DNA from: Isoetes taiwanensis
Taxonomy: Eukaryota; Streptophyta; Lycopodiopsida; Isoetales; Isoetaceae
Direction: 5' to 3'
DNA length: 64,000 nucleotides
Assembly (NCBI GenBank): GCA_021234155.1
Contig: JAJEKV010000003.1
Location: 21,560,386 to 21,624,385 of the forward strand
Shown: in pieces, positions 12,570-16,545 of the stretch
How positions within the stretch are numbered: the first letter of the stretch is position 1
Layout of the letters: the number at the start of each line of letters is the position of its first letter
Notes under the pieces: model-generated
Seen by the model: the letters and a program-made list of their open reading frames with translations, nothing else
Database searches by the model: none
What the model was told of the DNA's origin: nothing
Made by a program: the position numbers and the translations under genes

Positions 12570-12676
12570 TTAAGGAAGGAGGGAGAGGGAGAGGGAGAGG
12601 GAGAGGGAGGGAGAGGGAGCGGGAGCGGGAGGGAGGGAGAGGGAAGGGAGAGGGAGGGAGGGAGAGAGAGAGAGAA
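12570..12676 (-). repeat. (TCTCCC)n/(CT)n 3' tail of LINE copy A
   Basis: On the minus strand the tract is pyrimidine-only: three CATTT units, then (CT)n, then drifting TCCC/TCTCCC units. It sits exactly where the 3' tail of the adjacent minus-strand LINE should be. No poly(A) is present. Confidence 0.75.
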
Positions 12677-13696
12677 ATGAAATGAAATGAAGTGGAATGT
12701 TTATTAATACGTCTGTGAGATCATCAGGTTTAGAAGACGTTTAAAATATATAATTTGCATCGTAAATTAGTTCATCTAGAATGTCCTCTGGCAGGAACAT
12801 ACTAGCTCTCTCTTCTGCGTAATTTTCATCTATTGTTGTCGTCAACTTCAATTTCTGAATATTCATCTTTCTTATCTGCAATATCTCAACGAAATTTTCC
12901 AACTAAAGCTGCAAGAAGCTCAAAAAACTGTATCAACTCCCCAATTAAAATACCATGCTTACGTCTACAACATTCGTAAGCCGGACAATGCAGGATTACA
13001 TGCTCCTCATCTTCAATTGCATTTGTTCCGCAAACTTTACACAATCTCAGCTCATGAGGGACATTACCCAACGCCCAACTTCAACTCCCAGATGGTGGGA
13101 GCTGAGCCTCATTCTACTAATCATATGCCTAAGTTTCACGAAAATCCCTTCTTTGAGGTAAGAAGCTCCTTGTAAGGTAGGGTTCATTACTCGCTTATAA
13201 TACTCCTTCTTTACTTCGGGAACACTCCACATTTTGTGTGCAGCATGTCTCTTTATCCATTTCCTTAGATTCCTCCTATTCTCCCCAAGATCTCCTATGT
13301 TCATCCCCCATTTTTGAAGCCAAACCATGATATCAGCATACCAACCTTTTTCCTGACTTTGCACATGTGCCAAATAAGGCAAGCTATCATCTTCCTATAA
13401 ACAAGCGACTTGTGAAGTGCTTGTAGCTCTAACGGAAGCATATCACACTCCACAAGCATCAATATCATAAGGCGCTTGCATCTTAGCCCCCAGTTCAGCA
13501 TGAAAGAATTTTTTTTGTACCTTTTCTACTTTCTTCCAGAAATCTAAGGAAAGTCCAGATCCCCACACTTCACAACCATACAGAACTACAGGTACCACCA
13601 GGCATCAAACAACATCTTTCTAAGGCTGAAACTCCACAATCCAGCTTTATGGCATTTCCTTTGCATGGAGTAAAAAGCTTTCAACCCATCATTGTG
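12677..13696 (-). pseudogene. LINE copy A, C-terminal fragment of ORF2
   Basis: Minus-strand pieces give the post-RT part of a non-LTR retrotransposon polyprotein: an NDGLKAFYSMQ stretch at the 5' break, then MPLELQALHKSL, a block ending MRLSSHHLGVEVGRW, and a C-terminal CX2C...HX4C zinc motif (CKVCGTNAIEDEEHVILHC). All have counterparts in copy B and in the copy at 60-63.7 kb. Frameshifts separate the pieces. The 5' end stops at the (CT)n tract beginning at 13697. These are mobile-element relics, not host genes. Confidence 0.85.
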
Positions 13697-13849
13697 AGAG
13701 AGAGAGAGAGAGAGAGAGAGAGAGAGAGAGAGAGAGAGAGAGAGAGAGAGAGAGAGAGAGAGAGAGAGAGAGAGAGAGAGAGAGAGAGAGAGAGAGAGAG
13801 AGAGAGAGAGAGAGAGAGAGAGAGAGAGAGAGAGAGAGAGGAGAGAGAG
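13697..13849. repeat. (GA/CT)n microsatellite between LINE copies A and B
   Basis: About 150 bp of nearly perfect GA (plus strand) with one interruption near 13841. On the minus strand it starts 5-7 bp after the ORF2 stop of copy B and runs straight into the 5' break of copy A. The ORFs across it (RERERE, SLSLSL) are artefacts. Confidence 0.95.
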
Positions 13850-16457
13850 AGATGCCTATGGGAGGCCTCGAAGGCCTATTAGACGACAATTTTGAATGTC
13901 ATTGTAAAACAATAGATGAGTTTCTGAGTCCTCATCTAGCTCATCACTCTCACTCAAACTGTCATTATCATCAACATTATGATTATGCATACAAACTTCT
14001 CTATACTGTAAAAGCTCAATCAAATACTTCCCTAATATATCCCCATGTAGGGTGAAAAAGGTTGGCAGGTCTTCATAGTGTATTCCAAACTTATCACGTA
14101 ATACATTGTATGCCGTACATCGAAGCAATGCATGGTCCTCATCCTCTACTTTATCTTCCCCACATATTTTACAGTATCTTTGATCTCTAGGAATAATATG
14201 TCCCCATCTACCCACTTCCACACCTAAATGATGTGAACTAAGTCGAATCCTGCAAATAACATGTCTTTTTTGGATAGAAATATTTTCCCTCAGGTGCCCT
14301 GCCATTTCCAATGTGGGGTTAATATTCTGCTTATACAAAATCATTTTGGTCTTGGGCTGCGACCACATCTTCTTATCTACCTTTCTGGATATCCATTGTC
14401 TTAAATCAGATTTTACTAAGACCACTTCATCCCATTGTATATCCCATTTATTGAGCCACTTCTTGACATCTTGAAACAAACCATTCTCTTTGCTGGCTAG
14501 CAAAGCCCTACGTGTCATTCTAGTGTCATCCATGAGTAACACCTTCTTAAAATACGTAATGCATCTAAGGATCGCTTTCCCTTCCAAAGGCATGAGACCA
14601 CATTCTGCTAACATCATAGAGTAAGGGGTTTGGGCTTTAACTCCTAATTCCAGTTTCAAAAAGTTTTTTAAGACCTGCTCAATATCATCCCATAAGCATT
14701 GTGGCAAACTTGGTTCCCAAATTTCACATCCATATAAGACTATGCTCTGCACAAGTGACTGAAAGAGTCTCACCTTAAGGTTCCATGACCAAAGGTGTGT
14801 TCTCCTACACATGCTCTACAATGCATATAAAGCCCTTTGTCCTCCATCAATTCGTTGTGTGATGCATGCATGGAATAAAATAACGGCTAAGGTTAGCCAA
14901 ATGGCTATTTTGTAGCATTTTTGCCAAGAAAAATGGCTAAAGTAAATGGAAAAAATGCCAAAAAAAAAGAAAAATTTTAGCCCAAATTTTTTGCCGCCCA
15001 AGTGAGTTTTTAGGTTGAATAGCCAAACTTTTACCTCCAGACATATCCATCAGGACATCGATTAGCTAAACCTAAGATAGAGTGGGCTTGGAAAAAGGGA
15101 TAGATTAGCCTGAAATTCAACACCAATGTATGTACTAACTTTAAGAAATTTTAAATAGGGTTTATATTTTTCTTTTTTTCCACTTTCTTTCTTGTTCCAA
15201 GTACAAAAGTGAAGCATTAAAGGAAAAGGAACAATGTAGTCCCTTTTCTTTTAGGTTTTTGAACATGTTCATGTATGTTTGTGTCTTGATTTATGTATTT
15301 ACAATGATTTCAATGTCTTTGCCAAAATGCTTGGAAATTTTTAAATTACTATAGCGTGATGGCTAATATTTGCCTTTCCATTTTGTGAAAATTTAGCCAA
15401 AAGCAAGAAACTATGATGGAGAAAAACTATTTAGTTTAGCCAAGTGTTAGAAACGTCTAGCCCCAATTTGAAGGTAGTTTAGCTAAACCGATTTTGGCTA
15501 CACTAAAATATAGGATTAGTAATTTATTCCATGGATGCATGCATTCCATCTATGATTCCTGCTAAATACAAGGCCCAAATATTTGTATGAATCATATATA
15601 CTTACCACACTCCCCTTATATCTGAAGATGGGTTCTTGTTTAAGCGCTCCTACAGTCATAATGCTCGTTTTTTCGAAGGTTCACCTGCATACCTGTTTGA
15701 TCACAAAAATCAGCCAAGCCTTCCAAGTGTTTTTGCATATGATCCTTAGAGCGTGCAAAAATGACTACATCATCTGCATACATTAGCAACTGGATCACAT
15801 ATCCATGTATTTCCATGCCTCCTGGGCAATTCTTAAGCAACCAATCCTCTAAACCATCAATAAAAAGTCCAAACAATGTGGGGGATAGCGAACATCCCTG
15901 TTTGACCCCAAGATTACTTTCAACATGGTCCTGGATATCCAATGAAAATGGTAAAAATAATTGCACAAGCACTTTTTCATACAGAACTCGGACTGCATCT
16001 CTAAGCTCCTTGGGCACCTTCAACTTATCCAACCTTTCCCACAATTGGTCACGTGTCACCTTATCAAATGCTTTTTTAAAGTCTACAAATGCCATGTAAA
16101 CCGGTTTTTTAGTACCTTTAACTATGTCAAATATAGTTTTTAACACTAATAGATGGTCTAAAGTAGCCCTTCCTGCTATAAAACCTGCTCGTGACTCCGC
16201 ACGCTTTTGATTGTGCTCTACCCAAATACTTATCTTTTTTTCTAAGATAGTAGCAAAAAGCTTAGAAAATAGACTACTTACCATAATGGTTCGATAATTG
16301 TTTGCATCATGGCCTCGCCCCACCTTTATATATGGGAACCACCCTGTTCCGACACCAATCAAGTGGAAACCCTTGTCTCATAGCCAGTGTAAATATTTTT
16401 GCAACTAAAGGATGGATACAAGTACCTGCCCATTTCAGATGCTCTGCGCTTAATCCA
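13850..16457 (-). pseudogene. LINE copy B: reverse transcriptase and C-terminus, interrupted by a hAT-like insertion
   Basis: The minus-strand order is as follows. The RT N-terminal part (ending RNRVVPIYKGG) is followed by a frameshift, NNYRTIMVSSLFSK, AFVDFKKAFDKV (RT catalytic Asp region), GVKQGCSLSPTLFGL and MYADDVVIFA (YADD box). A 665-bp insertion follows at 14869-15533. Then come CITQRIDGGQRALYAL, an in-frame TAG, and a 318-codon frame (14812-13856) through IRLSSHHLGVEVGRWG and the zinc motif CKICGEDKVEDEDHALLRC. Removing the insertion and one 8-bp target copy restores WNAC-ITQ in frame. The endonuclease half is missing, and the 5' end abuts (CT)n at 16458. Confidence 0.9.
14869..15533. 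mobile_element. hAT-like non-autonomous element (MITE), 665 bp
   Basis: Flanked by the 8-bp direct repeat GATGCATG (14861-14868 and 15534-15541). Terminal inverted repeats start CATGGAATAAA at both ends. Subterminal regions are full of GGCTA/TAGCC motifs in both orientations, as in hAT elements, where the transposase binds short subterminal repeats. It has no ORF of transposase length. The 8-bp duplication, the TIRs and the restored LINE reading frame on in-silico removal all support this call. Confidence 0.85.
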
Positions 16458-16545
16458 GAGAGAGAGAGAGAGAGAGAGAGAGAGAGAGAGAGAGAGAGAG
16501 AGAGAGAGAGAGAGAGAGAGAGAGAGAGAGAGAGAGAGAGAGAGG
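16458..16545. repeat. (GA/CT)n microsatellite at the 5' break of LINE copy B
   Basis: About 88 bp of perfect GA on the plus strand. LINE copy B begins immediately to its left. On the minus strand each LINE copy is thus preceded and followed by CT. Confidence 0.95.

Follow-up and report, generated by a model that had tools for sequence, protein, structure and literature searches.

A stretch of 64,000 nucleotides of the Isoetes taiwanensis genome (contig JAJEKV010000003.1, positions 21,560,386 to 21,624,385; referred to here as the window) contains two long interspersed nuclear elements (LINEs), LINE A and LINE B, arranged head to tail within (CT)n tracts, each flanked by CT at either end (Table 1). 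Read along the minus strand, a transposon-like arm is followed by (CT)44, LINE B, (CT)n, LINE A, a (CATTT)-type tail and finally a CT/TCCC repeat. The 3' part of LINE A comprises a hairpin (12709-12740), AATAAA and the (CATTT)n-type tail, and in LINE B the 3' hairpin (GTCTAATAGGCC..GGCCTCCCATAGGC) immediately precedes CT. Poly(A) is absent from both copies, confirming on the minus strand the arrangement described in an earlier note on this DNA, namely stacked LINEs with CT at each side and pyrimidine 3' ends in place of poly(A). LINE B contains a reverse transcriptase (RT) domain (RVT_1, E 7.3e-31) and is 57.6% (RT) and 41% (C-terminus) identical to the second open reading frame (ORF2) of L028, one of the genomic relatives described below. 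The internal insertion of LINE B, approximately 670 b, has ATGCATGCATC at both sides when inspected by eye, a possible target duplication; its ends are GGAATAAA/TTATTCC-like and it resembles a small DNA transposon. Two of the three pure CT/AG runs of at least 20 b in the window are the LINE-bounding tracts, and since just one further run of this kind (28 b, 40077-40104) occurs in the 64 kb, the bounding of two LINEs by such tracts is far beyond chance expectation.

Table 1. LINE copies, their bounding repeats and the adjoining transposon arm in the window.
Feature	Position	Strand	Remarks
Left arm of palindromic 5' part, putative PIF/Harbinger-like DNA transposon	16545..16690	-	ends ..GCATGTGGCTGATGC; outer limit approximate
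(CT)44 tract, 5' junction of LINE B, putative target DNA	16457..16544	-	
LINE B, 5'-truncated (RT onward), internal insertion ~14861-15533	13853..16456	-	
(CT)n tract of 157 b separating the two LINEs, interrupted once	13696..13852	-	
LINE A, 5'-truncated 3' part: RT C-terminus, CCHC motif (by eye)	12676..13695	-	ends AATAAACATTCCACTTCATTTCATTTCATTTC
Compound pyrimidine microsatellite (CT, then TCCC-type) at the 3' junction of LINE A, putative target DNA	12578..12675	-	
Family C LINE copy, 5'-truncated, outside the CT system	60066..63716	+	5' limit approximate, by eye vs L166
Family C's own (TTCC)n tail, partly converted to (TCCC)n in this copy	63717..63759	+	

To characterize the 3' junctions of relatives of these elements, the whole assembly (1,658,258,908 bases in 1110 contigs) was searched with LINE A, giving 632 first-look candidates and 40 scored matches, LINE A itself included. 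Twenty loci of approximately 10 kb were fetched from these matches and the 3' end was readable in 18, the tail being lost in L025 and the 3' end lying outside the view in L027. Counts of 3' ends, like those of 5' boundaries below, were made by eye; an automatic 3' end classifier was dropped as its 106 rows had many false sites mixed in. The typical 3' end of a sampled copy consists of AATAAA followed by a (CATTT)n tail and then CT. Thirteen of the 18 readable ends pass into CT (in L009 and L016 only after a C-rich stretch), four into C-rich pyrimidine repeats (L014, L017, L024 and L026) and one (L020) into a weak pyrimidine stretch. A second set of 20 relatives, 15 at approximately 70% DNA identity and five of one subfamily, had an ATTTC-type tail (degenerate in L038) after AATAAA or AATCAA in every case, and 19 of these ends continued into CT (short in L030, L033, L037 and L040) or C-rich pyrimidine plus CT (L035). 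The tail of L047, a copy of the targeting family, enters long (CA)n instead of CT. A less biased sample was obtained with the pattern AATAAACATTTCATTTC, which occurs at 211 genome sites (114 forward, 97 reverse; reversed control 0), the first 36 of which in contig order were classified. These were checked against a listing of the pattern followed by (CT)5 within 25 b, whose 85 forward matches have no exact denominator of AATAAASATTTCATTTC sites and were used solely through these 36. Twenty-two carry (CT)5 within 25 b, and the other 14 were read individually, with long CT after about ten CATTT units in L077, C-rich repeats in L014 and L075 and CT of 7-8 b in L066, L067 and L070. In total, 28 of the 36 ends enter CT or C-rich pyrimidine repeats. 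Poly(A) was seen at none of the 3' junctions in the three samples (0/18, 0/20 and 0/36), and these elements therefore do not end in the manner of poly(A)-type L1 elements.

The 5' boundaries were sampled with a pattern for the start of ORF1 (ATGGCAAARMCNARRAARGA), which has 35 genome matches (reversed control 1). The upstream sequence was read for all 35 and extended for 12, and five were removed by eye as non-LINE (another repeat in L089, L093 and L101; copia gag-like in L111 and L112). A pyrimidine tract was present at the 5' boundary in 26 of the remaining 30 ORF1 starts. As copies that retain the start of ORF1 have a pyrimidine tract 5' of the element, CT is not merely a 3' tail. Of the 35, L054, L060 and L063 came from a set of 15 5' windows, of which 11 missed the boundary, three showed it and that of L052 held the 3' end of an older LINE with CT but lacked the start of the element itself. 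In every one of the 21 5' pieces measured, the long run read as CT along the sense strand. The expected 3' end was also fetched for 20 of the 35 ORF1-start copies; 13 windows missed it, and the seven in which it was visible all had a pyrimidine-flanked 5' end and all entered CT, two of them with a short run. In one copy (L087/L171) the 5' tract includes the compound CTCTCACACTC, which reappears on the 3' side, as expected if one compound repeat had been split. In the 5' flanks of L010 and L098, (CT)n turns into (GT)n just before the LINE start. The flank tabulation suggested in the earlier note, under which CT/TCCC on both sides of most copies would speak for targeting, was thus carried out on genome-wide samples and gave this result at 26 of 30 5' and 28 of 36 3' ends. 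Together with the LINE-free sites described next, these data support the note's proposal of a plant LINE that targets CT tracts.

At a number of loci the CT next to a LINE is bordered in turn by one of two arms, ..GCATGTGGCC..(CT)n or (CT)n..GGCCACATGC.. One or other arm was found in L009, L013, L015, L016, L028, L031, L037, L054, L081 and L100 and beside LINE B, where the left arm resembles the one beside L009 only weakly (81% over 53 b, E 2.5e-7) and its placement with respect to CT is that seen in L009, L013, L015 and L016. Because a DDE_Tnp_4 transposase gene lies beyond the right arm in L028 (8960-9502), the arms are read as the 5' palindrome of a probable PIF/Harbinger-like DNA transposon, the name being assigned by inference from this gene. 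In L028 this putative transposon spans 8307-9505. The core of its palindromic 5' part is either (CT)n or (TCCC)n(CT)n and is the LINE landing site; the arms were also noted in L031, L037 and L081, with only the outer part in L019. The arm-(CT)-arm form was found without any LINE at 10 places in the genome, with CT or CT/TCCC cores, compared with none in the reversed control; two of these sites, oppositely oriented and separated by 4 kb on a single contig, may be related. Since the form exists without a LINE, the CT tract is present before the LINE, and the TCCC beside LINE A is an ordinary component of repeats of this type. These LINE-free sites are the strongest evidence that CT is the target of insertion and not its product.

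Nesting of LINEs in CT next to older copies is frequent. In eleven loci (L019, L022, L063, L087, L099, L105, L106, L108, L110, L113 and L114) a LINE starts inside the CT that follows the 3' end of an older LINE, and in L032, L040, L045 and L048 another LINE fragment was seen by eye beyond the CT that follows a LINE. The LINE-CT-LINE stack of the window is one among many.

The third LINE copy in the window, on the plus strand, had been assigned in the earlier note to the same type as LINEs A and B on account of its TTCC/TCCC ending. The ending is as described; the assignment did not hold, as the protein pieces of this family, termed family C, are only 31-48% identical to ORF2 of L028 and (TTCC)n is the own tail of the 20 relatives sampled. 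Inclusion of this copy in the CT system was rejected on the grounds that its sampled relatives own a (TTCC)n tail and that its 5' limit, judged by eye, is in ordinary sequence. Family C (window 60066-63759; L130-L149) is very abundant and young, with copies approximately 96% identical; a search gave 1979 first-look candidates and 40 scored at at least 95%, the window copy included. The 3' sample consisted of 20 of 39 relatives, C963 copies, whose match stops at query position 412, being skipped. All 20 sampled 3' ends consist of (CTTC)n and then leave the repeat, in L132 into a pyrimidine-rich stretch, and CT of at least 20 b was present in none of the 40 family C pieces fetched. Among 3' pieces, CT of at least 20 b occurred in 0 of 20 from family C compared with 15 of 20 from the targeting relatives (Fisher p 8e-7), although the family C pieces are the shorter (160-161 b compared with 291-311 b). 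The control provided by family C rests on 3' ends. Family C and the CT-targeting families have the same kind of 3' hairpin and different tails. Elsewhere in the window, positions 36911-37613 form a tandem duplication of 349 b, 96% identical.

L028 has open frames for both proteins, with predicted products of 336 amino acids (ORF1) and 1106 amino acids (ORF2). ORF2 matches RVT_1 (E 2.8e-32) and Exo_endo_phos (E 3.4e-6), and on these domain matches the targeting LINE is classed as an apurinic/apyrimidinic endonuclease (APE)-type non-long terminal repeat retrotransposon; no match to RNase H was found in L028 ORF2 at E 0.1. The best matches of ORF2 among solved structures are the R2 and human L1 RTs. 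ORF1 gave weak matches to Transposase_22 (E 0.083, below the curated cut-off) and to LINE-1 ORF1p chains (E approximately 0.01). A hairpin preceding the tail is common to 32 hand-picked and aligned 3' ends, one of them from family C, with 11 pairs and 92.8% of alignment cells forming standard pairs, compared with at most 50% in slid versions. Four pairs have a change on both sides. Of 500 shuffles, 26 reached the observed percentage of pairing, 85 the number of double-changed pairs and 10 the covariation score. The hairpin is conserved, with only modest covariation beyond that of shuffled alignments.

CT might alternatively represent a 3' tail encoded by the element that expands after insertion, later copies landing in it by chance and without targeting. 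CT does follow most 3' ends, family C has its own (TTCC)n tail in this genome, and LINE tails can seed microsatellites, as described for RTE elements in Lepidoptera (PMC2887409). However, a pyrimidine tract is found 5' of most ORF1 starts as well (26 of 30), the repeat occurs without a LINE in the DNA transposon, its type differs between copies (CT, TCCC, TCC or CA) even though they have the (CATTT)n-type tail in common, and in L071, L073, L078 and L084 (CATTT)n runs straight into unique DNA. The 5' flanks and LINE-free sites largely refute this explanation, which is considered very unlikely, and led to rejection of CT as a templated LINE tail. A tail generator of the RTE type, with a repeat solely at the 3' side and made by the element, is likewise not what was found, and it is family C that matches such an element at its 3' side. 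Of the alternative offered in the earlier note, in which templated CT expanded and a later copy landed in it, the landing in CT beside older copies was borne out, but the tail that travels with the element is (CATTT)n and not CT. It is likewise very unlikely that the enzyme has no preference and that open, nick-prone microsatellites simply collect LINEs of any kind. Plant and human transposable elements are often surrounded by microsatellites, termed landing pads in a 2025 review (PMC12477314), but the abundant young family C shows no CT of at least 20 b in 20 3' pieces (L132 lying in a pyrimidine-rich stretch) and the orientation is fixed in 21 of 21 cases. An artefact, whether from mis-joined long reads, from gap filling at CT or from a small number of stacked loci copied by segmental duplication, is scarcely credible. 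The published assembly was produced from nanopore reads using miniasm with gap filling (PMC8566536) and some loci share flanks, but the junctions recur across numerous contigs in differing flanking sequence, with the position in the element and the orientation unchanged, and the LINE-free sites have both arms.

The reading preferred here, considered very probable on the basis of these sequence comparisons, is that (CT)n/(AG)n microsatellites and their C-rich pyrimidine variants are the specific insertion targets of a lineage of APE-type LINEs, which enters them in a single orientation. Repeat flanks on both sides, a fixed orientation and a target repeat that exists without the element, three of the features expected of a microsatellite-specific LINE, were observed, and these and the nesting in CT beside older LINEs support the reading directly. 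A number of observations weigh against it. Five of the 36 AATAAACATTTCATTTC 3' ends have no pyrimidine repeat (L068, L069, L071, L073 and L078) and three have merely a weak tract (L072, L074 and L076), and the 3' ends of L083 (diverged) and L084, outside this set, also have no pyrimidine repeat. Four of the 30 ORF1 starts lack a 5' pyrimidine tract (L091, L094, L097 and L116). Of the 26 counted as having one, L109 is a weaker case, with CTACTCTCT at the boundary and a long CT run 100 b upstream, and the 5' tracts of L092 (14 b) and L113 (7-8 b) are short. The type of tract varies between CT, TCCC, TCC and CA, 5' boundaries and LINE identity depend on judgement by eye, target-site duplications are invisible within repeats, and four pairs of copies share flanks and are not independent (L009/L016, L013/L015, L014/L026 and L067/L085); the shorter family C pieces noted above belong here too. 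The outcome that the earlier note had named as evidence against targeting, random flanks or poly(A) tails, is thus confined to a minority, with five of 36 3' ends and four of 30 5' ends tract-less, three weak 3' ends and no poly(A). As some 3' and 5' ends have no tract or a weak one, targeting specificity is strong but not absolute, or else old tracts have decayed.

The insertion mechanism inferred here involves a nick, RNA pairing, priming and second-strand joining. The endonuclease would nick the AG strand within the repeat, and the freed ...GAGA-3' end would pair with the pyrimidine-rich end of the LINE RNA, in which the conserved hairpin is followed by AAUAAA, the (CAUUU)n tail and the pyrimidine-rich end, and would so prime reverse transcription. 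Joining of the product to the other side of the same repeat during second-strand synthesis would leave CT on both sides. The (CATTT)n stretch, of variable unit number, appears to be a tail belonging to the element itself, the part that (TTCC)n plays in family C. The target repeat would survive, may lengthen, and because it outlives the insertion could be hit again, giving LINE-CT-LINE-CT stacks.

Target-specific LINEs are known mostly from animals, with some in protists, and those of plants are generally regarded as having no specific target and as being poly(A)-primed. Kibi and Koshi, reportedly described by Kojima and Fujiwara in 2004, are said to be Tx1-clade LINEs of fish specific for (TC)n and (TTC)n microsatellites. 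The Isoetes elements resemble these in being APE-type LINEs in a pyrimidine microsatellite of nearly the same sequence, a likeness in target and element type. They differ in their host, a land plant and not an animal, in the (CATTT)n tail and 3' hairpin, and in how often they nest in the CT beside older copies. Microsatellites are among known LINE targets, Tx1 and R1 being APE-type target-specific clades and Togen a (TG)n-specific family (PMC4640811). Togen and HERO families share a microsatellite target with the Isoetes LINEs; however, in the same article HERO is described as encoding a restriction-like endonuclease and Togen is grouped with NeSL-related families, whereas ORF2 of L028 matches Exo_endo_phos, of the APE type. 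The RTE elements of Lepidoptera are similar in lying beside simple repeats and in having a 3' tail of short repeats, but there the repeat is within the target duplications and came with the element (PMC2887409), whilst in Isoetes CT is outside (CATTT)n, on both sides and pre-existing; family C is the better parallel. With the L1-clade LINEs of plants the Isoetes elements share a land-plant host, an APE endonuclease and RT, but L1s of flowering plants presumably recognise poly(A) (PMC3747384), whereas those of Isoetes lack poly(A), have a microsatellite as their target and carry a conserved 3' hairpin. No mention of a microsatellite-specific LINE was found in the available portion of the Isoetes sinensis genome paper (PMC10541799), and none from plants, Isoetes or lycophytes was found in the literature searched, in which subscription journals were mostly uncovered.

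Taken as a whole, the data probably describe a multi-family lineage of lycophyte LINEs that is (CT)n-specific and self-seeding, with CT tracts, that in a DNA transposon core included, serving as safe sites for landing that are kept alive through insertion and so build up LINE-CT-LINE stacks. If this is correct, a microsatellite-specific LINE would be described here from a plant for the first time, and the microsatellite-target strategy would have arisen in, or persisted into, land plants. The same genome would also hold a hairpin-sharing LINE family with a different tail and no CT targeting, and the CT-targeting families and family C offer a ready-made comparison for the question of what determines the choice of target. 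Targeting of this kind would also help to explain the spread of CT microsatellites with transposons in the I. taiwanensis genome.

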